From contig CM026424.1 of NCBI GenBank assembly GCA_014871385.1, positions 3,351,131 through 3,415,130 on the forward strand: 64,000 nt of DNA. Reading direction: 5' to 3'. The position numbers and the translations under genes were made by a program. The notes below the pieces were generated by a model, which saw only the letters and a list, made by a program, of their open reading frames with translations, had not been told where the DNA came from and did no database searches. Shown here piece by piece: positions 27,867 through 49,758 of this stretch (the stretch's first letter is position 1; every line of letters begins with the position of its first letter). The stretch is from Ceratodon purpureus. Its lineage: Eukaryota > Streptophyta > Bryopsida > Pseudoditrichales > Ditrichaceae.

Positions 27867-29357
27867 CTATGCAGCACCATAAAATCTCTCAGAATCTAGC
27901 CAACTCTTAGTCATACGGTCATTAATACCGTCATGGAGTTTCTGCTGCAATAGATGGTAACCCTGGAAAAATGTACAACTCTGAAACAAAGCAATGCCCA
28001 ATTGTCCGGTTGATCCACTAGTCTTCGAGCAATGAACTATCTCATTGCTTTTGCAAAGAAGAATATCTCCGATAGCAGGCTCAAAATAGTAACCAAGAGC
28101 TGGAAAATAAAACCTCGTTTCATTTCCAGCATCATCTTGAGTACCTACATTCAAAAAATAAAATTATAATTAAATTAAAAAACATAAAAACAAATAAAGA
28201 TAATAAAGACATAATGTAAAGTTTGAAGAATTATAGAATACTTACCATTGGCTCCCAACCAAATAAAGAAGCCATAATTCTGATCTCCTTCGTCTGTGTG
28301 GGGATTACAGGAATAATCCTTGGTAACACTGATAGCTGTGAAAGGAGAGTCACCAACTCTACCAATACCAGCTGGTAGATTCTCCTTGGCCCAAATCATC
28401 TCCAACTGCTCCAAGACTAGAGGAAATAGGGACCTCAAATGGTGGTAAAGCATAGAAGCTAACTTATCACCATAAGAGTAGCAGAGAGGATCATCCTGCT
28501 TAAACCTACAAAAATATGTACAAAAAAATAGATTTATGTAAAAGTAATTATAAAGACTTAAACTATAGATAGACAAAACAAAATGTTAAAAAATATACAT
28601 AAAAGTAATCTTTGTTTGATAAAACTTACCTTCCAATATAACCTTGACCATGGCGGAAACCGGAGCACATCATTTTAGTTCCACCTTTTATCCCTTCTTT
28701 CTTATCATCATTCCTCACACGATTACCTTTTTTCGCAAGGTATGATGCCAAGGTAGTCATCTCCTTAACATCACTCTCATTGAATTCTCCATTCACAATT
28801 TGAAGAAGAAATTCATTTCCACCATTAGAAAGAATAGTGGTCGGCCCTGTAAGCTTCTGAAAATCTGGAATCGCTGAAGGTAAATCAAAGTTCTTCCAGA
28901 ACTTCTTAGTCTGCTTTCCCCCTTGATTGCCATGAATAATCTTCGGTACCTGAGAACCCCTGTAACCTAATGGAGATGGAGGAGGATAGAAAGGTTGAAC
29001 AGTAGAAAAGTGTTTTTTGAACACGTGATTCTCAAGCTCTTCATAACTTGCTGGTAAATTCCCCCTTTGACAACTCTCCTTGTCACATCTGAAACTCTTT
29101 CTCCCTTCCATCCAACTGAGACCCTGTTTCAATAGAAAAGGATAGAATAGCTCCAACTTCTCCATGTTCTTATGAATTCTCCCCTTGAAGTGTTCTTCAA
29201 GTCCTTGGCGAGCCACTGTTTTCGAACATGCGGAACAGAAGAAATCTTCATCTTCCTCCAATGTGAAATCTTGACCACTTGGTAAGGTAACATTCTCCCG
29301 AGGCCGTTTTGATGGTCGTTTAGTTGGTCTTCTATTTCCTCTTTTGTGGTCTGCCAT
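27867..29357 (-). CDS. Zinc-finger TET/JBP-like 2OG-Fe(II) dioxygenase, gene 1
   Basis: Exons 29357-28630, 28505-28246 and 28144-27867 join in phase with consensus splice sites and give 421 residues with no break. The N-terminus is basic. A U1/matrin-type zinc finger follows (C41, C44, H56, H62), then a second Cys2His2-like cluster (C91, C96, H111, H116). Residues about 237-380 look like the double-stranded beta-helix dioxygenase fold: an HxD iron motif at H312/D314 (NPHTDEGD), a predicted strand GFFIWLGANG, FYFPALGYYFEPAIGDILL, and a distal iron ligand H367 in EIVHCS followed by GQLGIALF. This order matches TET/JBP enzymes, which oxidise thymine or 5-methylcytosine in DNA. The usual 2OG-binding basic residue after the distal His is not obvious. 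Four tandem repeats lie just upstream. DNA as substrate is inferred from family and zinc fingers; other 2OG oxygenases remain possible. Confidence 0.75.
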
Positions 29358-29465
29358 CCTGTATAAAAACAAATTTAAAATTTCATAAAAATAAAAAATC
29401 ATATTAAAAAAAGGGAACATCTACTATATACATTTAGTTAAATTTTTATTAGATTTTTATATTAA

Positions 29466-29811
29466 AGAGAACATCAGAAATCCGGAAAATCAACCCTTTC
29501 GAGAAGATAATCCACCAAACGAGTTCTCAAAAAAAATTTAAATTAATATTTTTCATGATTTAAAGAAGAACATCAGGAATCCAACTTATTAACCTTTTGG
29601 GAAAATAAGCCACCAACCGAGTTCTTCATATTATTTTAGATTTTATTAAATAGGGAATTAAATTGAACGTCAGCAATCCGAAGAGTTAACCCTTTCGGGA
29701 AAACAATCCACCATGCGAGTTCTATAAAATTAAAATAATTATTTAAATTATTTAGAGGACATCAGGAATCCGGCTTATCAACTTTAGGAAGATAAACCAC
29801 CAACCGAGTCC
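29466..29811. repeat. Four tandem repeats upstream of dioxygenase gene 1
   Basis: Four copies of a roughly 60-base core lie at 29466-29528, 29563-29626, 29664-29722 and 29755-29811, spaced 91-101 bases apart. Each starts near catcaggaatcc and ends near ccaccaaccgagtt. They lie 110-450 bases upstream of the minus-strand ATG, so they could be promoter or leader elements. Confidence 0.75.
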
Positions 29812-30154
29812 CCTCTGGATTTTTATAAATTACAATGTTTATAATAAAACAAAAATTACATTTACATTGTACTAAAGAACTCACTACATTCACATTCACA
29901 TTTACATTCACATTTACATTTACATAAATGAAATAGTGGTTAACAACTCCAAAACAAAACTTACAAATGCAATGATATTCAACACATAGTCCACTCATAC
30001 AATTCATTCCACTATGCAACACAACTTTCACAAGCATAGGCAGCTATATAAATGCCGGCAACTGCCCATGCCGTAACTAAATCATAAACACGCTGCACGG
30101 TTGATCGTGAATCTAATCTAGGTGCTGATCGAAGTCCCATGCTAGTTACTTACG
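29812..30154. other. AT-rich spacer with a hexamer-type microsatellite
   Basis: 29885-29927 is an acattc/acattt microsatellite. No gene is seen. Confidence 0.5.
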
Positions 30155-30785
30155 GGGCCGGAGCAGCAGGTGTTGCTGGAGCAAGGCTTGGAGCGGGTGC
30201 TGCAGGAGTCTCAGCTACAGGAGCCTGAACAACACAATTTAAAACAAATGCACCATAGATAATAAGTTGAGATGGCATGAATAATCCTTGCTGAAACTGG
30301 AATGATGAAAGGCCTGTAGTAGGAGAAGAATAAGTACGGTAGAACCTTACACCAAAAATGGATGTCTCAAGGTAGCCGGGCGTGATGATATTCCAAACAT
30401 ATGGTATGAACCTGCAGACAACGTCCAAAAGAACTGAGCAGCGACTCCAAACGTAATGACAGACGAATTTTCAAAGGATGCTTGCTCGAAATAAACATGT
30501 TAAATTGCAGCTTCCTGTGTCGAAAATTTCTAACATCTCTCATTTCTCGCTCACCAGATGAACATAAACAAAAGCAGAACAAGATGACAAACTATAAAAC
30601 CGAATGCTCTCACATAAACGATCAACTCATAAATGATTTTGAATTGGAGAGCTCACCTTCCAGGTATCAGAGAGAAAGTGCCAGAGATAGCATTCGGGAA
30701 GAAGGCATTGGCGACATAGCCCGTGACAAGAACTGCAGCTAGCCCTTTCGAAAGCCGGGTGAAGCCCGAGAAAAGGCCCCCAGTC
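30155..30785 (-). pseudogene. Fragment of a TMEM115/rhomboid-related (RBL19-like) gene plus an Ala/Pro-rich exon
   Basis: On the minus strand, 30785-30657 encodes GLFSGFTRLSKGLAAVLV followed by TGYVANAFFPNAISGTFSLIPG. After an intron, 30411-30351 encodes FIPYVWNIITPGYLETSIFG. Together they match the start of the TMEM115-like, rhomboid-related membrane protein of plants (Arabidopsis RBL19 type), with a plausible splice phase. A further exon-like segment (about 30225-30155) encodes an Ala/Pro-rich stretch (PAAPAPSLAPATPAAPAP) that does not belong to that family. The rest of the gene is missing. This looks like captured exons rather than a working gene. Confidence 0.6.
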
Positions 30786-32505
30786 TGCACAAAAAACCAC
30801 TCATGAGCCATCAAATTAAAACCACAATCCACAACAAAAAAACAAAAAACCCAAACTCTCTAAGGGAGCAAACAGACCATGGATAGAACACAATAATTGG
30901 AAAACTTATCCAAAGCACTCTTCCCAACAAGGCAAAGAGTCTCAGCAGTGCAAATTCTCCTCACAACTTGACAGCGACCTTAGCAGCGAAGGACTCGAGC
31001 TGCTTCTCACATTCCTTTTGGATCTCGATCGTATTCCGGTTTCAGAGCTGATCGGTTCTAAGGCATAAGGACATCATGATCCCCGAGTCTGTCACGATGA
31101 TCCTCTGCGGCCGCTTGATTATGCGCATCCAGCCTAATCATGTTCAAACATGCAGCTGGGTAAAGTCAGTTTTAAGGTGCAAGATGAAGTTAGAAGCAAG
31201 GAAACGCATCCATAGCTACTACATGAGCTACACACTCAACAGTCTAATGTCGCCCTTCTAATCCCATCCTATGGATCATCCCTACTTAAGTGAGCTTGGG
31301 TACTAAGAAGACTTCACTGCTAATCCTCTGTATCACTGTGCAAGAGGCACTAACTGAAGACATTGAAAGTCTATCAATATCACTTTTCAAACTCAGAAGA
31401 AGCTCATGCAACAATCACTTCCAGTGGATGTCACAGTAGGGGCACCACATCCTTAGAAGCTTGAAGCATGGTATAAAGTTTTGATGAAGAATGGTCTTGC
31501 ATGAATCAGAACTATTTTCTCCTACTTTGAAGGAAGAAAGATGAGTGAGGTGGCAAGTTGTGAGCAATTGCCACCACTCTCGATCCTTGGAAGATTTCCA
31601 CCCCTACACGAAGAACATGGAAATCCTCCAAGAATTGCGAACAATGTGAACTGCTCACAGCTTATCACCCCATACATCTAAAGTAGGAGAAAACGGTGCT
31701 CATTCATGCATACCATGCTCCAACCCCACTTTCTGCCATACTCCATTCTCAAAGCCTACTCAGACACCCCCTTCCAGAAACAAAAACAGCCCAAATATCC
31801 AATGCAGAGTGCAGGGAAAGCTTTCCACAGGCAACTCACCACAAAGTAAGAGCCCCTAATACCGATCGACCAAGAACAGCTGAGCTGACTTTTCCCAACG
31901 CCGGTTCTCACCTCAGCTCAACTCAGCCCAGGGCTGCAACAATCAAGACAAAACACGAACGTCCTCTCTATCTGCGGCCGCTTGATTATGCGCGTCCAGC
32001 CGTATTAGGCTTTGCGTTACTGGAAGTGCTTCGCTTATTCAAATCAGACTCCAAGTCCTTGAAGAATTCGTCTGCAATAAAGGAGAGAGAGAAATATGAA
32101 AATCAGAGGTCAGAATAATGCAACCGTGCCAAAGCTTTCCATCATCAAACACCAGAGGGAAACAGAGAAGTTCGACGCTCTACCAACTGAACCCTGCAAG
32201 TCATTCCACAACTCGCCTGCAACCCACCGGCCCACTCCGTATAAGTCCCCTTTCCTATCTCTACACTTGGTGCATTACCCCTCGGGCCTCTAAATGCTTA
32301 TAAAGCTCATCATTGTATCGGTTCTACACACTAATCCTAAACATTTATTCGCAACTGAGAGCCACAAATACCAACCAACTTCTCACGCAGCCGTCATACT
32401 TGAACTGCAGATTCACTTTGCTATACATCATTGCTCTCCGGTAGGGAGAGCTATGATATTATATGAAGAACACGCAAAGATTGTTTTAAAAGTATCAGCT
32501 GGTGA
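30786..32505. other. Mixed-composition region with hairpin; possibly more captured fragments
   Basis: No complete gene is found. Two similar segments (31107-31138 and 31973-32007) share ctgcggccgcttgattatgc and are 866 bp apart. The minus strand near 31060-30965 reads as a possible short C-terminal exon (IEIQKECEKQLESFAAKVAV, then a stop shortly after) of a gene I do not recognise. The hairpin at 31515-31693 is listed separately. Confidence 0.35.
31515..31693. ncRNA. 179-nt imperfect hairpin, candidate small-RNA precursor or fold-back element
   Basis: The base is a perfect 14-bp stem (31515-31528 with 31680-31693). Pairing resumes inwards, with aagttgtgagcaattg opposite gaactgctcacagctt. The top is a tight stem between 31581-31600 and 31618-31639 that closes on a loop of about 17 bases. 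Size and mismatch pattern fit a plant MIRNA precursor. A small MITE or a young inverted duplication would look similar. The mature sequence was not recognised as a known family. Confidence 0.35.
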
Positions 32506-32859
32506 TTAGGAGCATGAAGGAATGGAGGACAGAAGAACTTCAAGAGCAAACACGGAAAATTCAGAGAGATTGGGCGTTTGAAATGTACTGAATCCGTAAA
32601 ACTCCTCTTTCACTTGTGTAGACTTGCGCCCTGATGAAGAAGCACCCCACTGAAATGGATCCCAATCATCCGCTCGTGTACGACTCCCTGCATCGTACTT
32701 GGACCGGCTCTTGCTGTCAACTAAAGTCTGGTATGCATTCTTAATTTCCAAGAACTTCTCTTGCGCTCCTGGCTGGCCACATGATACAATCGAAAGAAAA
32801 CTGTCAAGCCTTGGTGCATTAACGATGTAAGGAGTGTCCTCACCAGATGAGCCTTTCAT
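32506..32859 (-). pseudogene. Fragment of a DnaJ (J-domain) protein gene
   Basis: The open frame contains AQEKFLEIKNAYQTLVDSKS followed by RSKYDAGSRTRADDWDPFQW. This is the last helix region of a J-domain with its flanking linker, as in plant organellar DnaJ-domain proteins. The HPD-containing first half of the J-domain is absent, so it is a gene fragment. It lies on the same strand as the neighbouring DDB1 and TMEM115-like fragments. Confidence 0.6.
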
Positions 32860-33113
32860 GCGAGTCTCAAATTATACTATGGGCGTCAGTATTAGCAAAA
32901 TGTCTTTCCAGCATTACCATCCCTTAAACCCTAAACCCTAGCCATCAAAACCTGAGTTGTATAAAGTCTCCCTCGGCGGCTTCTAATATACCAAGCAGCG
33001 TCTTCCCTCGCTCACGGATACCGCACTACGTTGTTAGCAGCACTTGTTGGAGGGACTCCTACCACCACACGCCCACTGTTACTCCCCCGCGTCCCTCTCA
33101 CGCTCATTCTAAC

Positions 33114-33476
33114 TTAATGCAACCTAGTCAGCTCCTCTACTCGTTTGCACAGCTCCTCCACAGAGATGTCCAGCGGACTCGCGATCTCTTCCATCTTGTT
33201 CCGGCTCAGGTCCAGGAACGACTCGATCAGGTCCCCGTCCAAAAAGTTGCGCGCGTCCACCGTCTTCCGCTCGTTGCTGAACGACCGCCACTGCTCGTGG
33301 CTCAGCCCGCCCACGCCCTTGATCACCTTCACCAGAGCCTGTTGGAGCTTCTGCAGGAACAGGAACTGCTCCTGGGGCAGCGACGCAATCACCCCTATCA
33401 CGCCGTTCACGGTTACGAACTCATCTCTCCACAACATCACAGCACAACAACACCGAGAACAAGGTCTTCCAACCAT
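33114..33476 (-). pseudogene. C-terminal fragment of DNA damage-binding protein 1 (DDB1)
   Basis: From about 33428 leftwards the frame encodes TVNGVIGVIASLPQEQFLFL, then KVIKGVGGLSHEQWRSF, DARNFLDGDLIESFLDLSRN and a C-terminus ELCKRVEELTRLH before the stop. This is the highly conserved end of DDB1, the adaptor of CUL4 ubiquitin ligases. Only about 105 of roughly 1,090 residues are present. The sequence before about 33428 does not match DDB1, so this is a captured 3' exon or truncated copy rather than a working gene. Confidence 0.85.
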
Positions 33477-33818
33477 AATGGCCGACTGCAGTAAACAGAA
33501 ACCGGAAACAAGACATCGCTAACCTGATGCGCACGGCAGTGGACGTTTGCAAGAGAGTCCCTCTGAAACCTTAAAGACAACAAAGCTTACGCACCACAGC
33601 CCACCGAGGCATACCAAGAAAGAAGTCCCCAGATTCAAACCCACGCTCCCCGCCCTCTTCCCTCGCTCCCCCCCAACTTCCATCCAACGCATTGAACCCC
33701 CCACTCCATCCCTCAGTAGTACTCCGCCGTCAACACTTAATGTAAACTTTCATTATCTCAATAAAGTTGCCAAATTCCATATTTGATATTTGAATTTATT
33801 CCATAAGCACTCATTTAG
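33477..33818. other. Spacer between the DDB1 fragment and minisatellites
   Basis: C-rich sequence around 33650-33720 gives long but low-complexity ORFs on both strands. No gene is supported. Confidence 0.45.
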
Positions 33819-34134
33819 TAAAATCATGAATGGAAGATCAAAAATCATAAATGGAAGATCAAAAATCATAAATGGAAGATTAAAAATCATAAATGGAAGA
33901 TTAAAAATCATAAATGAAAGATTAAAAATCATAAATGGAAAGTCAAAGATCATATATAGATACGAGGTACAAAGACCAAGATATCTTCTTTGAAAATCCA
34001 AAAATGAAAATTAAAGATCCAAAAATGAAAATTGAAGATCCAAAAATGAAAATTAAAGATCCAAAAATGAAAATTAAAGATTCAAAAATGAAAATTGAAG
34101 ATGCAAAAATGATAATTGAAGATCCACAAATGAA
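33819..34134. repeat. Two adjacent 21-bp minisatellites
   Basis: About six 21-bp units like aaaatcataaatggaagat run over 33819-33944. After a short break, six to seven units of a related 21-bp motif (aaaatgaaaattaaagatcc) run over about 33998-34134. ORFs across them (KIINGRS and KMKIKDP repeats) are artefacts of the 21-base period. Confidence 0.85.
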
Positions 34135-34205
34135 TTTATAAAATATATCTTCATGAAATATATATAAGTAACATGAAGTCTTCAAATATATTCATCATAT
34201 ATCAA

Positions 34206-35335
34206 GTCAAACTTCAAAATATGTTTAAGTCTCCAAATAAATTCATAAATAAGTCTGCATCCATCAAAAAAAGATCAAAGGTTAAATACAAACACAAGTT
34301 ATCAAACCTTTGAAATATATTTGAGAAATATATTCATAAGGGAGGAAAATATATCATGAGAGTTATATTTCTCCAAAATATATGAAAAGACAAGTGAGAT
34401 AATATAATTTCAACAAGTCATGTGCTTTATATACTACACGAAAGCAATAAAAGTAGAAAAGTTGTTTTTGAAAGTAAAAGTATACCTCATATTTAGAATT
34501 ATCTTTTGTCATCTATAGACAAATTGTTAAAAGAAAGACAAAAAGTAAAGATTTCACATTCAAAATAAAAATAAAAGATAGTATGTACTAGAGTCAAGGA
34601 ATGAAAATAGGAAATGATGTTTGAAAATATAACTCACCTTATATTTAGAATTCTTTTTTTTTCATGTAGACTCTTTCACATTCAAAATAAAAATAAAAGA
34701 TAGTATGTACTAGAGTCAAGGAATGAAAATAGGAAATGATGTTTGAAAATATAACTCACCTTATATTTAGAATTTTATTTTTTTCATGTAGACTCAAATT
34801 GTTTGAAAATGAAGATTTGAAATATATTTATAAATAAAACATATCAATCTTTAGATATGTCTAAGTCTTCAAATAAATTCACAAATAAGTCTCCTATCAT
34901 CAAATATATTTCAAAGGTTTGATAAAAACACATTTTATCAAACCTTTGAAATATATTTGAGAAATATATTCATAAGGGAGGGAAATATATCATGAGAGTT
35001 ATATTTCTCCAAAATATAAGAAAAGACAAGTGAGATAATATAATTTCAACAAGTCATGTGCTTTATATACTACATGAAAGCAATAAAAATAGAAAAGTTG
35101 TTTTTGAAAGTAAAAGTATACCTCATATTTAGAATTATCTTTTGTCATCTAAAGACAAATTGTTAAAAAAAACAAAAAGTAAAGATTTTGCATTCTTAAT
35201 AAAGAAAAAAGATAGTATGTACTAGGGTCAAGGAATAAAAATAGGAAATGATGTTTGGAAATATAACTCACCTTATATTTAGATTTTTTTTTGTTTCATG
35301 TAGACTCTAATTGTTTGAAAATGAAGATTTGATTT
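34206..35335. repeat. Nested tandem duplication, unit about 637 bp, with inner 121-bp duplication
   Basis: 34206-34850 and 34851-35335 are similar in order and content. Within the first unit, 34552-34673 is repeated directly as 34674-34795. The junction contains a perfect 28-bp inverted repeat (34900-34927 and 34933-34960) with a 5-base loop. It is AT-rich and non-coding. Confidence 0.75.
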
Positions 35336-36628
35336 GAAAAAATAAACTAAAAGTTAGTCAATACTTTTGTGAAGGAATAAATAAATGGATAGATGTTTTT
35401 AAAAGTATATAGCATCTTATATTTAGATTTTTATTTTTTTTTCTTATTTTTTTTTTTTTTCCTGGTGGACGCGAAGTGTTTGAAAACAAAGATTAGTAAA
35501 GATTTGTCTTCAAAAATAAATTTTGGAATTCTGTATTTGAAATTGGAAATCGATATTTGGAATTTGGGATATTGATTTCGGAATTTTATATATACAGTTC
35601 AGAATCACAGTGGATTGGATTTGGAATTTTGGAATTTCCTCATACGAGAGCTTGGGACAAAAAGTTGACGTCCTGTTTAGAAATTATCAATATATGTCAT
35701 CTCAGCGAAAAAAAAATTAAAATGATCTTGCACCGTTCTACTGGCGAGCGTGAAGCGTGGTGGGGTGGGCGTCGAAGGGTGACCTGGAGCCCGGCACAAG
35801 CCCCCGGAGGGTGCCACGACAGCTCAAGATCAAAGCCAACGATCACCAAGCCACCAAGGCTTGAACTGGAAGGAGGGTAGTGCGTGAACGTATATATATC
35901 AGTCAAGGCGGACAATGGCAAACGGTATGGGATAACCAGGACTCTGCCAAGCCAGGGGAGGTTCCTAGTGAGTTGTACTGTTTTCCCGTTTTTGCAATTG
36001 CCCCTGGCTACAGCTGGCTCGCTTTGATAAATAATGTGCAGAAACCAAGATCATTTTAGTTTCAATGCTGGCTGCTGGTGGTCATTTTGCTGGTCTGGTG
36101 TTGAATTCTCAAGACGGTTCTGTTCTCGGTCATTGTCTTCTGAACTAGTAATTTAGAATTCCAGACAAAAGTTATTATTTTCTCTGACTTAACCTTTCCT
36201 AAGTGTTAAGCTTCATGTAATGAATTATTATATGCTTGTGAAATTTTGAAACACTGTTGATTTCCAATTACCTTTTTAAGTTACATTTAGAAAAAATATG
36301 GTGGCATGTTAGATTATAAATGTTTACTTCATTATTACTTTTACTTTTGTTTTAAACAGGGAATTTATTTTATGACCCAAGTTGTTCTCTTGATAGTAAA
36401 AGAAACTATCACTAAAGCAGCTAAAATAAATTTTTTCCACATAATTGTAAAGATTCATGTGCTTAGGGCAAGTTTTACAGATCATGTAACAGAGGGTTTG
36501 AAAGTGGGTTTGAAAGTGAGAATAACAATCTTAAGAAATAACAAAACTAAATAAAAATCAATCCAATTTCAAAGAAACAAATGAACAAATCATTTTCAAA
36601 AATAAATTTTTATTAATTCATTTAAACT
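35336..36628. other. AT-rich spacer with a small GC-rich patch
   Basis: 35740-35880 is a GC-rich island with no coding similarity that I recognise. Otherwise the interval is AT-rich with homopolymer T runs near 35430-35460. Confidence 0.4.
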
Positions 36629-37891
36629 TCATTTCTTAAACCTTTTCGACTCAAATGTATTATTGTAAACTATCTTTTGTTTTCTATTATTTATCCCCTT
36701 TTCTAATATTTTTCTAGCCTCTTTCTCTTCTTTACGTTGTTGGACCAAGACACTCGGTGCACCCATTTGCCTTCTTAATTTTTCACAAGCTGCTTTAATC
36801 ACTTTCTCCTTTAAAACTAATGCTATTCCAATTTGGGTATTTCCGAAGTTTTCTCTAGTATAATGATATATCTTAGAAGAATCAAACAATAATATCGTGC
36901 CTTGTTGAGGTTTAATATATATATTCCACTCTGGAAATACAAATTCTCCCCCTCGACCTGTATTGTTATCGGATTGAAACCAAATTATAAAACCGTGGAG
37001 TGTGTCTGTGACATCAATATGAGGAATCACATAATAATTTTTTGTTATAGACAGAAGTGAAAACGGACTACATCCAACTCTACACCAAAAGTCCGGTATT
37101 GTATTTGGATGTAGCACTTCTAATTCATTCATCCATGATGAAAAATTTGATTGTAGTATTTTAGATACCATTGATGTCCAATCCGCTCCCATTTCACTTA
37201 ATAATCCCGGAGGGAATTCATTAGTAAGGGCTGCAGATCTTCCCGGATGTATGTATTCCCCAAAATCATCTGTTTCATTAATATACCTCCATCCTGTTAA
37301 AACCATGTCTGCCCCTCCCATGGTTTTGCCCCTGGCTACTGTACCCCCATTTTTATATATTGTATTCAAAGTCTTATAGGATTCCTCACACATCTTCTCT
37401 TCAAGATTGTTAAAAAGAACTATGCCCAAAACTTTTCCATTTTTATAAAAAATAGAAGAGTTAGAAACTTGTGACATTTGTAATAGGTTTTCCTCGTAAT
37501 TCTTTCTATTGAATTTTGAGTGCGGTCCAACCTTAATCACATGTTGAATTTCATTTGGAATTGAAACACCATCATTCCGAAGTGATTCTATAATTTTCAA
37601 AGAATCTTGGATTCCCAGAAACATATTCCCATTTCTGTCAGTGGATTTAGAGACATCACCACTAACAGTAGTCACTTCGGATTTAGAGACATCACCACTA
37701 ACAGTAGTCACTTCAGTTTCATGAATACCAATTTTAACATCATCTTCACCCGTAGGTTTACATGTAGTACCTAAGTTTTGCTTCCTAGCCCACTTTTCAT
37801 GATGCCTACCTCCCTTGTGGTCATCAAACTGTTTAGAACTGGTAAAATATTTACCACATTCACAAAGTCTAGGAAATTGAAGAGTTGTCAT
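36629..37891 (-). CDS. Zinc-finger TET/JBP-like 2OG-Fe(II) dioxygenase, gene 2 (intronless)
   Basis: A single open frame of 420 residues. A U1-type zinc finger lies at the extreme N-terminus (C10, C12, H25, H31). Then comes a linker with a perfect 12-residue tandem repeat (EVTTVSGDVSKS, residues 60-71 and 72-83). The C-terminal half has MVLTGWRY (compare MMCSGFRH in gene 1), SITKNYYVIPHIDVTDTLHG with the HxD iron motif H291/D293, GFIIWF, GGEFVFPEWNIYIKPQQGTI, and the distal His 343 in KIYHYT followed by NTQIGIALVL. Strand order and spacing match gene 1, so the two are paralogues, though sequence identity is low. The tail is Lys/Arg-rich and could be a nuclear signal. Gene 1 has three exons and this gene none, so they are not recent copies. 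The 2OG-anchoring Arg/Lys position appears to be Gln here. Confidence 0.75.
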   Translation of the reverse strand: MTTLQFPRLCECGKYFTSSKQFDDHKGGRHHEKWARKQNLGTTCKPTGEDDVKIGIHETEVTTVSGDVSKSEVTTVSGDVSKSTDRNGNMFLGIQDSLKIIESLRNDGVSIPNEIQHVIKVGPHSKFNRKNYEENLLQMSQVSNSSIFYKNGKVLGIVLFNNLEEKMCEESYKTLNTIYKNGGTVARGKTMGGADMVLTGWRYINETDDFGEYIHPGRSAALTNEFPPGLLSEMGADWTSMVSKILQSNFSSWMNELEVLHPNTIPDFWCRVGCSPFSLLSITKNYYVIPHIDVTDTLHGFIIWFQSDNNTGRGGEFVFPEWNIYIKPQQGTILLFDSSKIYHYTRENFGNTQIGIALVLKEKVIKAACEKLRRQMGAPSVLVQQRKEEKEARKILEKGINNRKQKIVYNNTFESKRFKK

Positions 37892-38400
37892 TTTGATAAT
37901 ATGAATTTATTTCAATAAGAAAAGTCTCACTAAAATAAATATGTCTTGAAATAAATAAAGTATGGAAATATAAGGAGAATGAAGAAAATATATTAAATGT
38001 ATAAAACATAGAGTAACAGCTTGTATTTATAGTTCAAATTTTGTAAAAATAAATTAAAAGTTTAAAAGAAAGGAAAATCTAAAAGTAAAAGTATAATTTT
38101 AAATGAAGATCTAATATAAAGTGAAAGTACAATCTAAAATGACGATCTAATATAAAGTGAAAGTTCAAATTACAATAGAAGTGAAACTAAGTATTCAAGT
38201 TAAAAGTCAAGGTTGAAATTTATAATATTTTTAAAAATTAGAAAAGTCCAATTTCATGCTAAAGTTAAAGACCAAATTCAAGCAAAAGTAAAAGTCCTAA
38301 TTCAACCTAAAATAAAAGTCCAAGTTCAAACTAAAGTAAAAGTACCAATTCAAGCTAAAGTAAAAGCCCAAAATAAGATTGTGAATTCCAAAAGAAGAAT
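37892..38400. repeat. Upstream AT-rich region with short tandem repeats
   Basis: 38090-38170 has two units of about 42 bases (gatctaatataaagtgaaag). 38230-38376 has about six 24-bp units of an aaagtaaaagtccaattcaa type. The ORF at 38213 (KVKVLIQP-type repeats) is a by-product of the 24-base period. Confidence 0.7.
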
Positions 38401-39449: not shown

Positions 39450-39935
39450 CCAAAATCAAGAATTTTTCCTTTAAAAATTTGTCAAAATTCGAGATTTTTG
39501 AATTTTTGAATTTTGTTTTCTTCTGAAAATCACAAATTCATGAAGGTACCTATTCACCGTTCAATTTTTCTTTAGCTCACAAATTGTTTTTGTAATGCAT
39601 GTTTTACTATTTTGTCAATTTTATACCTTCTTACAGAAAATAATTTTTATGAACGTCTAAAAAGCGTTTTTTTGGCCTAAATTTTTGCATGAGCATACCT
39701 AACCTAGTTAGCTACATGGAAAAAAATGTGACCAAAACGTTTGAATTAATAATCATCAAGTCTCCCTTTGGCCCATTTGCACCATGCCTCTCGGCTAAGG
39801 CCCCAAAACATATCTGCTGAAACTTTGAACACTACGATCTCACTAATGAAAAACATCCAACGGTTGAAATTTGAATCAGTTCTTCCTAGTAGGGTTAGGT
39901 ACAAGATCTTACGGTTGAATTTCCAAAAAAAGATA
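39450..39935. mobile_element. Decayed relative of the TTAA-flanked element at 1256-2184
   Basis: This segment aligns with about 1600-2100 in the same orientation. Shared tracts include ttagctacatggaaaaaaat-like sequence, aataatcaagtctccctt, caacggttgaaattt and agatcttacggttg. Its right end is cut off at 39936, where the 873-bp direct repeat begins, and no intact terminal repeats remain. Confidence 0.6.
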
Positions 39936-40808
39936 AACTTGATGTGTAATTTCATTAAACTTATACAAAGACTGAGTGAAGGGTTGGCTGGTAGGAAGCT
40001 ATAGAACTATGTGAAAAGTCTTTTCCTAGTATATTATCTTGGAATGTAAATGGATTTAGTTTTAAATTAATGTATACTTTATTATTACCAATCTGCAATC
40101 TCCGTTTTTGTAGCAGCATCTATACTAATACTGACGAACTATTTCAACTAAGTGGTTTTAGAATTTTCAACTCCGTGGTTTGAGAATTTTTAAAAAGAAA
40201 TTAATATTTCTTTTGTTAACCAGTTTTAGGATTGGGGTTTTGTGGTTTATCACCTTAATAGCTGGTAGTATGAAAGTGGCTTGATGGTATTTTGGAATGT
40301 GAAAAATGTTTCATGGAGTTAAATGTGTGAGTGTAGTTAGATAGTATAGTATATGGTAGTAGTTTAGTGTATTACGTGGGATATCATCTGGTTTGCTTGT
40401 TGAAAAAATCTTTGAAAGTTCCCGAGATAGTCTGTACAGTTCAATGGGTGGTATCATCTCTGATAAGCAATGGGGTCATGTGAAAGAGTCTGACAGTGTG
40501 TGATAGAAAACTTCTGCATTGAACCATGTCAGACTCCTTAAACGCCAGTGTATCAGAAAATTTAGCTGCAATCCTTATGTTCTAACTTGATATTTGAAAC
40601 CAACAAAACGGAGATTCCTCAATATGATCAAAGACACCACGATCACATAGCTCACCTAGCTGGACAACGGCTACAATATGCAATCCCCAAACTCACATGC
40701 CTCCAAAATTCCCAAAGAAAACAAAACTAGTTACCAACAAATGGAACCTGTTGTTATTTAACATTCTAGGGTACGAACTTTAGGCTATCTGTCATATCTC
40801 GCACAAGG
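39936..40808. repeat. 873-bp direct repeat, copy 1
   Basis: By eye it is identical to 49836-50708 except for two substitutions, with no indels (constant offset of 9900). Its right part (40624 onwards) overlaps repeat X. It has no recognised coding content. Confidence 0.9.
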
Positions 40809-42181
40809 AGCACATTGTCATAAATGGTGGGAGTTCTCTGGAGACAAATTGCAGCTTAGTGTATACTATTATGACTTGGCTGCAACCGTCAAATCAGCAG
40901 ATTGTCTATATTGAACATGGACGTACTGCAGCACAGGGGCCAAACTTCCGACTGAAATTCAGCTTTGCATACAGCTTAGGCCTATGTGCAAAGGTATTCT
41001 GAATAAAAACATATAGTTTTAGATTGGGCCAAGTTAGACAACCAGGTTCAAATTATGAAGGTGGTTCAGCCCGGCTGTTAATCCTAGCTGGCCTGTGTGG
41101 CTGTTTGTGACTTTGTGATGTGAGAATAAGGTGGCACAAATTTCAAGGGAACAGTATGAACCTCCAGCCATATTTGTGGCAAGACATCACTTATGAAAGA
41201 CAGACGGAGAGGGAGAACACATTCGCAAGATTGTTCCATGTAGGGCCCAAAACCCCCTCGTTGACAAGAATTTAAATAATGAAACATATTAGGTTGACGT
41301 GAGAGCACAGAGCTCAAAATAATATTCCAATGTAGATCACACTCTTCAAATGGAGTTTTGTCTTGGGAAAGCCCCAAATTCCCCCTCCTCCACCTTGAAT
41401 ATTTCACTGTGGGATGGGTCAGATGATACCTTATGTGCAAACTTATGGACATATCATCTGTGGGTCGACATATGGACATCTTTGTTGTTCACATCAGTTG
41501 ATGTGTGCTCATTTTCAATTTATTGGTTCCTTTGTTGCTACCATGGTTTTTTAATTATTGATATTCTTGAGCACAATGCTTAACCCTTTAGTGCCAGGGT
41601 GGTTTTGGAGAAACCATTGTTTTTTGGTTGATGTATTTTTAAAACTCTCTTTGTTGAAATTAGTGATATTATTAATAATATCCAATCGTATGAATGTAAA
41701 TATTGCTTAATGAAACAAGTGTCAATTAAATATCTGTAAGATCAGATCGTTGGATTGGAAAACTACAATATGTCTTTGATCTGTACCACAGTCCGGGGAG
41801 TTTTTTTTGCTTAACCGGATATTTTCTGACATTTTCACAAACCAACCGGTTTTTGGAAAAACAATTCGGCTAGGCCTTTAGAAAATAGAGAATATTCTTA
41901 GATTTTCCCTTAAAACGATCGGTTATTTTCCTACACTTTGCTATTTCATTCGGAAATTTTCAATTTCACCGGCTAGGTCGTAACTAAATGCCGGTACTCC
42001 CCGTTCATAGATCTGTACAATGTACATTCAAAAATGAGATTTTGGAGGTGTCTGACTTCAAGGTTAAATAGAATTTGGGTTAAATTTTCAAAATTAAAAG
42101 TAAAGATGTTCAGCAATGGTTTATATCAACACCTCTTCATTGCAATTTTTCATGTCAAGAACATACTTATACATAATTACT
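40624..42181. repeat. Repeat X, right copy (inverted relative to 21987-22829)
   Basis: This is an inverted near-identical copy of 21987-22829, interrupted by the 730-bp insertion at 41305-42034. Confidence 0.8.
41300..42039. mobile_element. 730-bp insertion with 5-bp target duplication TGAGA
   Basis: Comparison with the uninterrupted left copy of repeat X shows a precise 730-bp insertion (41305-42034). It is flanked by TGAGA on both sides (41300-41304 and 42035-42039). The inserted sequence starts gcacagagctc and ends acattcaaaaa, with no clear inverted ends and no credible gene. Class unknown. Confidence 0.75.
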
Positions 42182-42540
42182 AAACCTGCTTTACATATCT
42201 TTAAGGACATATAAATTGCTATTCCTATGAACAAAGTTCAATTGAGAATCCACTTTCGAGAATTTAGATAAAACAAAGAAGATTAATTTGAAAAGAAAAG
42301 GCTTTTTGATACAAAGGCATTTTGCATACTTTGGAAAACTCTACAATCAGCAAATCATCAACTTTTTTAATTCAATATGTGTATATATATATATATATAT
42401 ATTTTTGGAATGTATTTAAAATGTCATTTTCTTCATTTTACTGAAATAAAATGTAGACAATGACAATCTTGACATTCTAAAAGTACACCTTTGAAAATAA
42501 AATAAAATCTTGTATGTTAGTTCATTCATATTTAATTTAT
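42182..42540. other. AT-rich spacer with a TA microsatellite
   Basis: An (AT)n tract of about 24 bases lies at about 42378-42402. No gene is seen. Confidence 0.5.
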
Positions 42541-45318
42541 TTGCGCATATTCAAGAATTTTTAAATAAAAGCAAAAATTAAATTAAAAAGTTGTGTCAAA
42601 GTCTATGAAGGAGACTAAGGGCCGGTAGGTGGGACTGCAGAGAGAGGGTAGAGTGGGGAGGGACGAAGGGGGGGGGGGGGTCCAAGGGTGGATGAAACCG
42701 GCACAAGCACCACATTGGTTGCCACGTCAATCTCATCATACTTGGTACCCCATTTACATTACAACATGTTACAGTGGTCAGTTATATCCAAGCCTCTCAC
42801 AAAAGTCCCATTTGATATGGGACATTTGAGAGGAACTGTAGGTTCCGAAGGGCTCCGGTGAGTAATCCGGGAAGGGAAGGATCCAGGTTCTGCCTCGTCT
42901 GCAGCTGCTCCCACAAGCTGAGAGCCAAAATATTTCAGTGCACTTGCATTTGAAAACAATCTTGAAATATCTAGAGATCCATAAATGCTTGTATTATCCA
43001 ATGATCTGGAAAACAAAAGTAATTCAAGATGGAAAAGAAATTAGCACCAAATTATATGAATGTGTGTAGAATAGATTTCAATAATATATGATCCAACATT
43101 TAAATAGCTCAAAGACATTGGAATATAATGTTAAAATATATAGAGATACTTACAGCGTTTCTAGATGAGTGAGTTCCGCGATCCAGTTTGGAAAATTTTC
43201 TCCTTGGAAATTGTTGTACCTCAAATTTTTAATGGATATGGAGAACCCATTGGTGCATACATTTCAAAACTTAGATAGATTAATGACTACTAATTCCATG
43301 TCTAAATTGAACTAAAAAAAACTAAATTAAATCCCAATCAATTTATTTTTTGGTGGTGTTTATAAAATCACAGTTTGGAATTCTTCAAAAAATACATGGA
43401 CTAAGATAAGATAATCAAATAATCTGAGCATAATTTAAATTCGCATTTTTATAATAAAATGATAATTATTTGAATCTGGACAAGTTGGAATGAACTTACA
43501 ATGTCTTGAAATTTGTTAAAGAACTCAAATTTGGTATGTGTCCCCAAAACGAATTGATTATGTCTCAAATTTCTAGAATCACACCTTTGAAAAAGATTAA
43601 TATCATGGCATTTACATTGGAGGTTAATTTGAATTTTTTCATTTGAAAAATTGATGTTATTATCAAGAATACTTACAAGTATTGAATGTTTTGTAACAAA
43701 CTCATATTGGGAAAATATCCTTTGAAATTATTGTTAGAAACATCTCTGCATCAAGCTCCAAAACAATATCAAAGACATAAAAAAATTTGAAACAGTTTCT
43801 AAAATAATGTTAAGAATAAATAAGCAGTACAAATTAAAAATATTTTAAAAATTAAAAAAAGAAGATTAAATTGGTGAAAAGTGGCCTACAAGTAATATAA
43901 GGAAGGAGGAGTTAGATTCGGAAGAGTTCCACTGAATTGATTTTTGGACAAACATTTGTTTTTTTAAACTCTATCAAATCATGCAACATAACAAATTAAT
44001 TACTAACTTATTGAATTACAGCATAATAATTCAACGAGTCACCTAAGCTCACAATATTTACAGGAAATAAAAGAATACATTGACAATTATTAACAAATTA
44101 TTTGTGGCTAGTAATTACAAGATACATTTATAAGTGTGTTCTCCAAAGACGAAGGACTGAAATTGAGAACTTGGGCAAATGTTACACTTACAGTTCAATT
44201 AAAGAGGATTGGAACTGAAACATTGTTTGGTTCAAAACACCAAACAGTAAGTTTTGAGATGCATTTAATGTTTGCAAACCCATGGTCTTGGACAAAAAAT
44301 CTCCAGGAATTTCTCCAGTAAATTTGTTTCTACTCAAGTCTCTGCAAATATGCAACAAATATTTATAAGTAAGATGTTAATGATATTGACAAAGAAGGTA
44401 GTTTGAATAATTTAAAACAGTAAAGTTAGTCTTTGCCACGTAATGAAAGAATTACAAATCTGTTGGTGAAGTAATTATGTAAATACAACTATCAATTGAG
44501 ATGGTGTAAGAATTTACAGATAATGAAGAGCTTCTGATGATGTGATTGATACAGGTATTGATCCATTCAAACTATTGCCTCCAAATTTTCTGGAATAAAA
44601 GATATTAAGTCACATTTAGAATATGAAATTTTCTAGATTCTAAATATTAGGAGAACGATAATATAATTCCATAAAACCTGAAACACAATTCAAATACCAT
44701 GAGCATTTTGGGAAATAGCCAAAAAAGTTATCAGCTTCTAATAAAACAAGTAGGTAAAAACTATATAGTTTGATTTTTTATTAAATTTTATTAAAATAAA
44801 TTTAGTTATTTAAAATAAAGACATGGTTTAAATCAATTTTTAAAAAGAACCCCAAAAAAGTGTATATGAAGAGAAAACTAAGCTTACATTGAATTTAAGC
44901 TTCTTAATTTGGTGAAGTTAGGAAGTGGACCAGTTAAATTTTGAGCCCCTCCTATGGTTCTACAAAAGAACAAAGAATTATTTTTGCTTTGTAAGAAATC
45001 AATGGCAACTTGATGTTAGTATAAAATTGATGATCATTCAATGATTAAGTCACTAAGAAATTGATTGATGATGATAAATTCAACAAATAATCAATGGCAT
45101 TGTGAAGGAGAATATTTAAAAGAAATTTACTTACAATGATGCTAAATTAGTCAAATTTCCAAATGATGGTGGTAAGTTGCCTATAAGATGAGGAGATGTA
45201 ATCACTTTGCACATCAACCAATCTTAGTATATTGCTTCAATGAAGAAGAATGTTAAGAAAAATAGTTATTTATCAGTATAATCAATAAAGGAAATGATAA
45301 ATAATAAAGTATAAATAT
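42541..45318 (-). pseudogene. LRR exon array, copy C
   Basis: Minus-strand copy of the 2.78-kb LRR unit, nearly identical to copies A, B and D. The exons for LSRNKFTGEIPGDF, GGNSLNGSIPVSI and NWIAELTHLETL are all recognisable. It has no signal peptide, membrane or kinase exons of its own. The homopolymer at 42668-42680 is 13 G, against 15 in copy D and 18 (as C) in copy A. Confidence 0.75.
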
Positions 45319-48300
45319 TTGCGCATATTCAAGAATTTTTAAATAAAAGCAAAAATTAAATTAAAAAGTTGTGTCAAAGTCTATGAAGGAGACTAAGGGC
45401 CGGTAGGTGGGACTGCAGAGAGAGGGTAGAGTGGGGAGGGACGAAGGGGGGGGGGGGGGGTCCAAGGGTGGATGAAATCCGGCACAAGCACCACATTGGT
45501 TGCCACGTCAATCTCATCATACTTGGTACCCCATTTACATTACAACATGTTACAGTGGTCAGTTATATCCAAGCCTCTCACAAAAGTCCCATTTGATATG
45601 GGACATTTGAGAGGAACTGTAGGTTCCGAAGGGCTCCGGTGAGTAATCCGGGAAGGGAAGGATCCAGGTTCTGCCTCGTCTGCAGCTGCTCCCACAAGCT
45701 GAGAGCCAAAATATTTCAGTGCACTTGCATTTGAAAACAATCTTGAAATATCTAGAGATCCATAAATGCTTGTATTATCCAATGATCTGGAAAACAAAAG
45801 TAATTCAAGATGGAAAAGAAATTAGCACCAAATTATATGAATGTGTGTAGAATAGATTTCAATAATATATGATCCAACATTTAAATAGCTCAAAGACATT
45901 GGAATATAATGTTAAAATATATAGAGATACTTACAGCGTTTCTAGATGAGTGAGTTCCGCGATCCAGTTTGGAAAATTTTCTCCTTGGAAATTGTTGTAC
46001 CTCAAATTTTTAATGGATATGGAGAACCCATTGGTGCATACATTTCAAAACTTAGATAGATTAATGACTACTAATTCCATGTCTAAATTGAACTAAAAAA
46101 AACTAAATTAAATCCCAATCAATTTATTTTTTGGTGGTGTTTATAAAATCACAGTTTGGAATTCTTCAAAAAATACATGGACTAAGATAAGATAATCAAA
46201 TAATCTGAGCATAATTTAAATTCGCATTTTTATAATAAAATGATAATTATTTGAATCTGGACAAGTTGGAATGAACTTACAATGTCTTGAAATTTGTTAA
46301 AGAACTCAAATTTGGTATGTGTCCCCAAAACGAATTGATTATGTCTCAAATTTCTAGAATCACACCTTTGAAAAAGATTAATATCATGGCATTTACATTG
46401 GAGGTTAATTTGAATTTTTTCATTTGAAAAATTGATGTTATTATCAAGAATACTTACAAGTATTGAATGTTTTGTAACAAACTCATATTGGGAAAATATC
46501 CTTTGAAATTATTGTTAGAAACATCTCTGCATCAAGCTCCAAAACAATATCAAAGACATAAAAAAATTTGAAACAGTTTCTAAAATAATGTTAGGAATAA
46601 ATAAGCAGTACAAATTAAAAATATTTTAAAAATTAAAAAAAGAAGATTAAATTGGTGAAAAGTGGCCTACAAGTAATATAAGGAAGGAGGAGTTAGATTC
46701 GGAAGAGTTCCACTGAATTGATTTTTGGACAAACATTTGTTTTTTTAAACTCTATCAAATCATGCAACATAACAAATTAATTACTAACTTATTGAATTAC
46801 AGCATAATAATTCAACGAGTCACCTAAGCTCACAATATTTACAGGAAATAAAAGAATACATTGACAATTATTAACAAATTATTTGTGGCTAGTAATTACA
46901 AGATACATTTATAAGTGTGTTCTCCAAAGACGAAGGACTGAAATTGAGAACTTGGGCAAATGTTACACTTACAGTTCAATTAAAGAGGATTGGAACTGAA
47001 ACATTGTTTGGTTCAAAACACCAAACAGTAAGTTTTGAGATGCATTTAATGTTTGCAAACCCATGGTCTTGGACAAAAAATCTCCAGGAATTTCTCCAGT
47101 AAATTTGTTTCTACTCAAGTCTCTGCAAATATGCAACAAATATTTATAAGTAAGATGTTAATGATATTGACAAAGAAGGTAGTTTGAATAATTTAAAACA
47201 GTAAAGTTAGTCTTTGCCACGTAATGAAAGAATTACAAATCTGTTGGTGAAGTAATTATGTAAATACAACTATCAATTGAGATGGTGTAAGAATTTACAG
47301 ATAATGAAGAGCTTCTGATGATGTGATTGATACAGGTATTGATCCATTCAAACTATTGCCTCCAAATTTTCTGGAATAAAAGATATTAAGTCACATTTAG
47401 AATATGAAATTTTCTAGATTCTAAATATTAGGAGAACGATAATATAATTCCATAAAACCTGAAACACAATTCAAATACCATGAGCATTTTGGGAAATAGC
47501 CAAAAAAGTTATCAGCTTCTAATAAAACAAGTAGGTAAAAACTATATAGTTTGATTTTTTATTAAATTTTATTAAAATAAATTTAGTTATTTAAAATAAA
47601 GACATGGTTTAAATCAATTTTTAAAAAGAACCCCAAAAAAGTGTATATGAAGAGAAAATTAAGCTTACATTGAATTTAAGCTTCTTAATTTGGTGAAGTT
47701 AGGAAGTGGACTAGTTAAATTTTGAGCCCCTCCTATGGTTCTACAAAAGAACAAAGAATTATTTTTGCTTTGTAAGAAATCAATGGCAACTTGATGTTAG
47801 TATAAAATTGATGATCATTCAATGATTAAGTCACTAAGAAATTGATTGATGATGATAAATTCAACAAATAATCAATGGCATTGTGAAGGAGAATATTTAA
47901 AAGAAATTTACTTACAATGATGCTAAATTAGTCAAATTTCCAAATGATGGTGGTAAGTTGCCTATAAGATGAGGAGATGTAATCACTTTGCACATCAACC
48001 AATCTTAGTATATTGCTTCAATGAAGAAGAATGTTAAGAAAAATAGTTATTTATCAGTATAATCAATAAAGGAAATGATAAATAATAAAGTATAAAATCA
48101 CGTGTTTTTGAAAATATACTACATATCGACTACCTTAAACATAATTGTAAGCTACCTTGAATAAAATCATAAATAACTTACAACATAACAATGTAAACAT
48201 TCCATCGAGTAGTATCATTTGTCCATTGCTTTTGAAGGCATCTCACACCAAACCATGGTTTCAAAGGATCACAAGGTTCTTCATTTGAACCACACCAACT

Positions 48301-48935
48301 TACTAAATCTCCATTCCAAGTTTGATGAGGTTGAGCCTGCCAATTCGCACAGGTTTGGGACATAGCATCCACTAACACAATCACCACATTATCCAATTCT
48401 ATATAAGTTAAATTTCAAAGAATTAAAATTTTAGAATGATTTACTTAGAACTTAGTTTGGATTATATATGGGGACACTCTAAAACCATGCCAAAAATTAT
48501 ACATAGAAAATATTTCAAAAGTACAAAAAACTTAGCTTAAATGATAAATCCACGGTTAAGACATATTAATTAAAAAAAATAATTGGTAGAAATTCCCCTT
48601 TTTGAACAAGGAAAGTTACAAAATAGTCTTATCTTCTATATTTGACATTCTATATATTTTGTATCAAATTATGGCAATACTATCTATATATTCAAAATTT
48701 AAACCCAATACCCTAAACCTTTAACAATTCTAAGCTTTAATTAAAAAATCCGGTAGTTACTCATCACAGTTTGGAACCCACATTAGACAAAATGACCAAC
48801 ATAAATTTTGAGAGAGAATGAGGCGATCTAGTATGACTTACATTCCACTCGACCCAAAACATATGAACTGTTCTGCCCAGCAGAACATGAAATGAAGAGG
48901 AAGAGGAACACCAAGGCCATGAATGACAAATCCAT
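45319..48935 (-). pseudogene. LRR receptor-like gene copy D with its 5' exons (probable source copy)
   Basis: Only this copy has a gene start. 48935-48842 encodes a signal peptide (MDLSFMALVFLFLFISCSAG). 48398-48182 encodes an LRR N-terminal cap (WNGDLVSWCG, then PWFGVRCLQKQW). The LRR exon array runs from about 47960 down to 45540. The two 5' exons do not join cleanly, because direct splicing brings a stop codon into frame. The first LRR exon phase is also unclear. There is no kinase domain. It could be a truncated secreted LRR protein or a decayed receptor. The array end at 48095 is the boundary of the duplicated unit, so upstream exons were not copied. Confidence 0.65.
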
Positions 48936-49504
48936 GCTATCAATATTGGCAACAGAGAATTGTACTCTTGTGCACTGATGTGTGCACTTGTTAGTTACAA
49001 GACTCATCACTGTTTTTCGCAAGACCTTTCAACCTGTATATGCACCATTGAAGCAACCAACTGTAAGTTAGTGAGTGATTGTTTATATATGAGTGATATC
49101 AGTGTAGACATGTTAGTAGATTCCCTCCCCTCACTGATTTTACTTCAGATTAGAGTTACATCAGGTGATATGGCCAGTTAGTGATATGTAGAACACTTGT
49201 GTAACAATTCTGGAAACCAATGGCTGATTCTTTAAACAAATCTGAATTCTTATTTGTCAGTAATTAACTATAATTTAAATGTATGTTTATTATATCATAT
49301 AGTAATCTGCTGTTTAGAATAAGTTTTAGAATAAAAGTTTGGATTTTACATCAAATTTGTGCAGCTTACCACCAAGTCAGTAAACATATCATCAAATTAA
49401 AGTATCTCTGTGTATTTTAGTGATTATACAAATGTAAAAAGTGTTCTGATTATAGTGAAAAAGAATTATGTGCTAATGAGTAATTTGTTGCAATTGGAAT
49501 ACAG
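48936..49504. other. Spacer between divergent LRR 5' end and dioxygenase fragment
   Basis: No gene is seen. It would hold the LRR gene promoter (leftward) and the last intron of the rightward dioxygenase fragment. Confidence 0.4.
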
Positions 49505-49758
49505 AACTTGAAGGGGAAAGAGGAGATTGTATCAGGACTCAGTTTCTTTTACCAGATTGTGGTTATTTTCTAAAATTAGGAAAAGGTACTGTTGTTGGCC
49601 TCGACTGTGCAAAAATCAAGCATGGATCACTAGAAAATAAGGGCTATAAACAATATGGAGTTGCATTGACCTATAAAAAAAGAGTGGTCACTGCCTGTAG
49701 GAATGAAATGGCAAAGAAGTTTGGCTTCGATTTCACTATTAAAGAACCTGAGCAGTAG
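49505..49758 (+). pseudogene. Last exon of a third TET/JBP-like dioxygenase gene
   Basis: After an acceptor (acag, 49501-49504) an 84-codon frame reads TQFLLPDCGYFLKLGKGTVV, GLDCAKIKHGSLENKGYKQY and GVALTYKKRVVTAC, ending at a stop at 49756-49758. It aligns in order with gene 1 (FYFPALGYYFEPAIGDILL, EIVHCS, GQLGIALF) and gene 2 (EFVFPEWNIYIKPQQGTI, KIYHYT, IGIALVLKEKVIKAAC), including the distal iron-binding His. The exon with the HxD motif was not found upstream, where the LRR gene lies on the other strand. It is probably an orphan fragment. It has no ATG and would be missed by simple ORF calling. Confidence 0.65.

Follow-up and report, generated by a model that had tools for sequence, protein, structure and literature searches.

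A 64-kb stretch of plant DNA (contig CM026424.1 of assembly GCA_014871385.1; hereafter the window, 64,000 nucleotides in all) carries three loci, A, B and C, that resemble genes for iron-dependent TET/JBP dioxygenases and in particular CMD1, an algal enzyme that transfers part of the vitamin C molecule onto methylated DNA. The loci are arranged as follows, with positions counted from the first letter of the window.

28630..29357, minus strand: locus A exon 1, 728 bases with the ATG at 29357 and a GT donor, encoding a basic N-terminus, two C2H2-like fingers and the start of the catalytic region
28246..28505, minus strand: locus A exon 2, encoding an RVGDSPF..S-TKDY..PHTD..D..GFFIW block with the HxD motif (H312, D314)
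27867..28144, minus strand: locus A exon 3, encoding the F-FP block, the distal H367, Q377, the GIAL strand and the stop
36629..37891, minus strand: locus B, a CMD1-like protein of 420 aa encoded without an intron
49505..49758, plus strand: locus C, an orphan last exon with an F-LP block, H48, Q58 and a G-V-A-L strand (residues numbered in frame from 49480)

Joining the three exons of locus A gives a protein of 421 aa, and both introns are of the GT-AG type. The open frame at locus C extends from 49480 to 49758 on the plus strand, but its coding part probably starts at 49505, behind an AG. This AG, together with a split codon phase identical to that of A intron 2, suggests that C corresponds to the final exon of a gene resembling A, and C may be what remains of a third such gene. 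When the whole window was searched by tblastn with A, B and C up to E 10, no further copy that was convincing turned up, nor did an exon upstream of C, and the idea of such an exon was dropped. A and B each have a coding sequence of more than 1.2 kb that is uninterrupted by stop codons. Given that the surrounding DNA has a G+C content of ∼33%, the 420-codon frame of B would not be expected by chance; within it a segment of 36 bp, a length divisible by three, is exactly duplicated. Comparison by blastp revealed that A, B and C are homologous in the catalytic domain, with E values of 2e-19 for A and B (31% identity over 172 columns, credible in the catalytic domain only), 2e-10 for B and C and 0.003 for A and C. 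An earlier note on this DNA had described one gene of 421 aa in three exons, one intronless gene of 420 aa and an orphan last exon, and this arrangement was recovered in full, as were the motifs claimed for it, namely HxD in A and B and, in each of the three loci, the F-[FL]P block, distal His and G-[IV]-A-L strand.

The loci lie among repeats. Both A and B are situated between the arms of a 4.46-kb inverted repeat (22838-27297 and 43588-48044), the copies of which are 99.8% identical, include an internal duplication of ∼2.78 kb and may reflect recent duplication or an effect of assembly. Immediately upstream of the A start are four degenerate tandem units of ∼98 bases each (29459-29809). A direct repeat of 873 bp (39936-40808 and 49836-50708) is also 99.8% identical between its copies, the second of which starts 78 bases past the stop of exon C.

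To place the proteins in a family, A and B were scanned against Pfam, in which Tet_JBP (PF12851) has a gathering cut-off of 34.9 bits. Tet_JBP was the top family for both A (19.9 bits, E 4e-4) and B (18.8 bits, E 1e-3), and the open frame of A exon 2 on its own scored 18.3 bits. Both proteins also matched the Tet-like family 2OG-FeII_Oxy_6 at 13-14 bits. Among the PHROGs families, phrog_24024 was matched by B (E 3e-5) and by A (E 0.03); C had no match in PHROGs, and A and B had none in NCBIfam. A search of all PDB chains with B returned CMD1 at E 5.6e-8, the next two chains being unrelated (E 0.52 and 1.5). CMD1 was likewise the sole match of A up to E 10 (E 0.17), and a three-row profile of A, B and C (the plant profile) retrieved CMD1 at E 6.4e-9 with no other chain up to E 10. 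Judged by sequence, CMD1 is the nearest solved relative.

Relatives were also sought in viral contigs and prokaryote genomes by searches guided by the plant pattern. One search of viral contigs yielded a phage Tet_JBP gene (L002) and a gene of the 2OG-FeII_Oxy_3 type (L001), and the other searches gave no confirmed relative. L002, the sole member of its phage family that was scored against Pfam Tet_JBP, reached 83 bits and is thus a full member above the cut-off. A single viral-contig scan extended the family by 45 loci (L003-L047, relatives of L002), of which L023 is the same contig as L002. The L002 gene itself stands among a cytidylyltransferase-like gene, an NAD epimerase and a UDP-galactopyranose mutase (L002:1806-6338), as if an oxidised base were further decorated with a sugar. 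By tblastn, B gave short, weak matches only, in 25 phage records (lowest E 3e-3 over 57 residues).

The plant profile matched 21/21 representatives of the phage TETs (best E 6e-9), one of 78 controls (E 4e-5) and no shuffled sequence. The control that was matched, L048, is a biased one, since it is the same gene as L001 and had been retrieved by the plant pattern search itself. In profile-profile comparison by hhalign, the plant family aligned with the phage TETs at a probability of 90.8 over 191 columns and with the control family at 86.6 over 56 columns; the value for phage TETs and controls was 11.4. The plant proteins and the phage TETs have in common a PF[ST]xx[ST][IV]xK[ND][FY] block ahead of HxD, and R218 of B, which is part of a GR motif, aligned with the GRATSYTE motif of the phage proteins. 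When two phage TETs were added to the plant profile, the first seven of nine PDB matches were CMD1 (3.7e-6), TET2 (three chains, 0.005), CcTet (two chains, 0.02) and NgTet1 (0.31), a result to which the added phage rows contribute. The search was also run in reverse, with a 158-residue piece of CMD1 against 2310 sequences (1210 window frames, 21 phage TETs, 78 controls, spliced A and 1000 shuffles). B ranked first (E 8e-11) and spliced A second (E 2.5e-4); the frame of A exon 3 (27870-28163) was found at E 0.0081 and one 2OG-FeII_Oxy_3-type control at E 0.013, with no match among the 1000 shuffles. In a small tree, CMD1 grouped with A and B (support 92/88), but the branches are very long and the tree therefore carries little weight.

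The residues that would form the active site of B are encoded at the following positions.

37013..37021, minus strand: HxD iron motif H291-I-D293, by alignment to H345 and D347 of CMD1
36863..36865, minus strand: distal iron ligand H343, by alignment to H397 of CMD1
36833..36835, minus strand: Q353, 2 residues ahead of the strand Gly, where TETs carry the Arg that binds 2-oxoglutarate (2OG)

For CMD1 of Chlamydomonas reinhardtii, the available sections of PMC7854593 give H345, D347 and H397 as iron ligands, R244, H249, S335, T337, W358, T399 and S414 as contacts of vitamin C, with V342, I356 and F371 as hydrophobic neighbours, and R244, D350, F416 and R418 as contacts of 5-methylcytosine (5mC), D350 reading the cytosine N4. 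The variants R244A, H249A, T337A, W358A and T399A are described there as being without activity (PMC7854593). The HxD...H triad is complete in A (H312/D314/H367) and in B (H291/D293/H343), and C retains the distal His only. An Asp at +5 from the first His, the counterpart of CMD1 Asp350, is found in both A and B. At the positions of CMD1 S335, T337, V342, I356, W358, F371, T399 and S414, B has S, T, V, I, W, F, T and Ala, and A has S, T, C, F, W, F, S and Ala; the Ser414 position is Ala in C as well. Within the part compared, identity at the vitamin-C contacts was 7/8 for B against a background of 36/151 (p 2e-4) and 4/8 for A against 25/136 (p 0.04), although active-site residues are conserved in any event, so that the p values exaggerate the support for ascorbate. 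At +13 from the first His, the alignments place a Trp in CMD1, A and B, a Leu in 21/21 phage TETs and a Val in TET2; Leu339 of CcTet is at +13 when counted from H326 (PMC11040006, in the part available).

A, B and C all have Gln where CMD1 (R410), TET2, CcTet and 21/21 phage TETs carry Arg, and for this reason they were not filed as canonical TETs. The Gln lies 2 residues before the strand Gly, as does R410 in CMD1, and HMMER aligned its column with the Arg of TET2; MAFFT placed a 3-residue gap adjacent to it relative to CMD1, and the pairing of the Gln with the TET Arg is not beyond doubt. The accessible portion of PMC11040006 reports that R385 of CcTet binds a 2OG analogue and that the R385A variant is inactive.

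The N-terminal regions of A and B contain finger-like motifs.

29172..29237, minus strand: locus A finger 1, C-x2-C-x11-H-x5-H, residues 41-62 (C41, C44, H56, H62)
29010..29087, minus strand: locus A finger 2, C-x4-C-x14-H-x4-H, residues 91-116 (C91, C96, H111, H116)
37799..37864, minus strand: locus B atypical finger, C-x1-C-x12-H-x5-H, residues 10-31 (C10, C12, H25, H31)

U1 spacing was found only in finger 1 of A. All Pfam finger matches were below their cut-offs: 14.8 versus 21.2 bits for zf-met in B, and 12.9 versus 27 bits for zf-C2H2_13 and 7.8 versus 22.6 bits for zf-C2H2_jaz in A. The U1-type finger that the earlier note had described as shared by the two complete proteins is not upheld by these differing spacings and low scores, nor by the A-B alignment, which is confined to the catalytic domain. 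Fusion to a zinc finger is plausible for A, but the finger of B is atypical. The N-terminus of A is strongly basic, which may serve in nuclear or DNA targeting.

Taken together, the sequence comparisons indicate that A and B are very likely homologous to the TET/JBP superfamily, and they are probably divergent CMD1-like enzymes that modify nucleic-acid bases and possibly use ascorbate. For the parts of this interpretation our confidence differs. We infer, as moderately likely, that nucleic-acid bases are what A and B act on, and a role for ascorbate as their co-substrate is doubtful. The zinc fingers and basic segments would bring the protein to nucleic acid, where a cytosine or 5mC could flip into the pocket. 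The base might then be modified by Fe(II) and O2, together with ascorbate or with a different small acid for which the Arg is dispensable, either by glyceryl transfer as in CMD1 or by hydroxylation.

Several observations weigh against assigning A and B to CMD1-like enzymes. The Tet_JBP scores of both proteins fall 15-16 bits short of the 34.9-bit cut-off. The Arg of the 2OG site is described as highly conserved across the TET superfamily (PMC11040006, in the sections available); the plant proteins have Gln there, and CMD1 itself has the Arg. Phe416 of CMD1, which stacks on the base, is Val in B, Phe in A and Thr in C, and Arg418 is Lys in B, Ser in A and Lys in C. The CMD1 piece used in the reverse search matched 0/21 phage TETs, and the preference for phage TETs over controls in the profile-profile comparison is modest in probability. 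In a midpoint rooting of the small tree, a weakly supported node (74/91) united the plant proteins and CMD1 with the controls and not with TET2 and the phage TETs. The AlphaFold models had a mean predicted local distance difference test (pLDDT) score of 42.5 for whole B (25-row alignment) and 42.3 for the B domain (19 rows), and are poor because a deep alignment was lacking. In a Foldseek comparison of the whole-B model with PDB chains, this low-pLDDT query returned NgTET1 at ranks 2 and 5 and CcTet at ranks 9-11 (probability 0.90-0.99), an unrelated carboxylase at ranks 1, 3, 4 and 6-8 and nothing at E 0.001, and CMD1 was absent from the best 50 chains. Against viral models, the top named matches were mostly generic 2OG oxygenases, none at E 0.001. 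The relationship to TET/JBP that the earlier note proposed is supported by sequence, in that Tet_JBP is the top Pfam family of A and B, CMD1 is the sole credible PDB match, the CMD1 piece ranks B and A first in the reverse search and the plant profile finds all 21 phage TETs; plain membership is not established, given the sub-cut-off Pfam scores, the Gln in place of the conserved Arg in all three loci and the poor models.

Three other explanations were weighed. A and B might be 2OG-dependent TETs of the canonical type, hydroxylating 5mC and holding 2OG by means of the Gln or some other residue instead of the Arg. The iron triad and the Asp at +5, both kept in A and B, fit this explanation, as do the PDB matches obtained once phage TETs had joined the profile. 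It is unlikely in view of the loss of activity in CcTet R385A (PMC11040006, from the part available) and of the Trp at +13, which agrees with CMD1 but differs from TET2 (Val) and from CcTet and the phage proteins (Leu). Distinctly less likely is that the proteins belong to another, prolyl-hydroxylase-like branch of the 2OG oxygenases with a protein or small-molecule substrate, and that their TET-like appearance stems from the common GG-F-FP block. The generic 2OG-Fe(II) oxygenase family phrog_61 is the top PHROGs family of B (E 7.6e-7), a result that also counts against a CMD1-like assignment, 2OG-FeII_Oxy_3 is the second Pfam match of B (17.1 bits), and the biased control L048 was matched by the plant profile, with the hhalign probability of 86.6 for the control family restricted to 56 columns. 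Set against this, neither the plant profile nor A or B retrieved a prolyl hydroxylase from the PDB up to E 10, the plant profile matched a single one of the 78 controls but every phage TET representative, and the block preceding HxD is common to the plant proteins and the phage TETs.

Decay of the loci was the last possibility considered: A and B could be members of a mobile or lineage-expanded TET-like family that are degenerating and no longer catalytic, with C as a dead exon and the Gln as a mark of lost function. The orphaned state of C and surroundings rich in recent duplications and CACTA-type genes agree with such a history, and expansions of fungal TET/JBP genes have been linked to transposons (PMC8889193, in the portion available). 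It is nevertheless highly improbable: A and B each remain open over their full coding length and keep all iron ligands despite being only 31% identical, and the duplication within B preserves the frame. Divergent CMD1-like base-modifying enzymes remain our preferred assignment for A and B.

A more far-reaching proposal is that the loci represent a land-plant family of ascorbate-using enzymes that modify cytosine in DNA (or RNA) and have wholly lost the 2OG anchor, which would extend base modification derived from vitamin C beyond green algae and set it beside the ROS1/DME demethylation of plants; this we regard as slightly more doubtful than the use of ascorbate as such. According to the sections available of PMC6917789 (2019), TET/JBP enzymes had not been identified in plants and were absent from spruce gene models, and support for the presence of oxidised 5mC in plant DNA was limited and ambiguous. 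The accessible text of PMC11233409 states that TET homologues of plants were still unidentified as of 2024, and that of PMC12458080 that 5-glyceryl-methylcytosine (5gmC) was undocumented in other species as of 2025. Our literature search found no report of a land-plant TET/JBP protein, but the main TET/JBP surveys were outside its reach. If the assignment is true, such land-plant genes would provide named enzymes with which to test for oxidised 5mC and 5gmC in plants. Genes of the A and B type are overlooked by a Pfam scan at its own cut-off. The exchange of Arg for Gln with the vitamin-C contacts kept also yields a testable prediction on how an iron oxygenase may shift from 2OG to ascorbate.

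Other features of the window, among them those that bear on the nature of the host, are listed next.

13078-12848 and 12524-11772, minus strand: PsbO gene (Pfam MSP, 327 bits), with exon bounds as read by us
33476-33114, minus strand: C-terminus of a CPSF_A protein (Pfam, 63.5 bits)
52593-56393: CACTA-type element (Transposase_21, 211 bits; DUF4218, 112 bits; DUF4216, 25.8 bits, below cut-off)
10325-10437, minus strand: U5 spliceosomal RNA gene (78 bits)

The CPSF_A C-terminus belongs to a gene that we take to be DDB1. Identity to the mature PsbO encoded in the window is 75.2% for PDB chain 8c29, 72.4% for 5xnl and 70.7% for 9i4t (presumably from Norway spruce, pea and Arabidopsis, respectively), and 8c29 is itself 82.6% identical to 5xnl and 81.4% to 9i4t. 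The five top chains in the PsbO search scored 380-406 bits, and the following chains, which we assume to be from green algae, scored 320 bits or less. This identity pattern points most simply to a non-seed land plant, on the thin evidence of one gene, and leaves the attribution to a flowering plant unsupported. Contamination by fungal or algal DNA was discounted in view of the occurrence of the land-plant-type PsbO, the CPSF_A C-terminus and the CACTA-type transposase in the same sequence.

Compared with known systems, the plant proteins share H-x-D-x-x-D and the block ahead of it with the phage Tet_JBP proteins, which are ∼18-23% identical to B and differ, in 21/21 representatives, by an Asn at -8, the Leu at +13 and the Arg at the 2OG site. 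With TET2, CcTet and NgTet1 they have HxD...H in common. Like TET2, they carry a polar residue five positions after the first His, where Gly331 stands in CcTet (PMC11040006, in the part available). They depart from TET2 and CcTet in having Gln for the 2OG-anchoring Arg and Trp for Val or Leu at +13, and TET2, CcTet and NgTet1 match the plant profile in sequence only when phage TETs are included. From CMD1 (PDB 7CY4-7CY8) the plant proteins are distant over the piece compared (39/154 identities for B and 28/139 for A), with Gln for Arg410, Ala for Ser414 and N-terminal finger-like motifs, and Phe416 and Arg418 are not retained together in A, B or C. What they have in common with CMD1 is the iron triad, Asp350, Ser335, Thr337, Trp358 and Phe371, with Thr399 as Thr or Ser, and, in B, the GGEFV[FL]P block.

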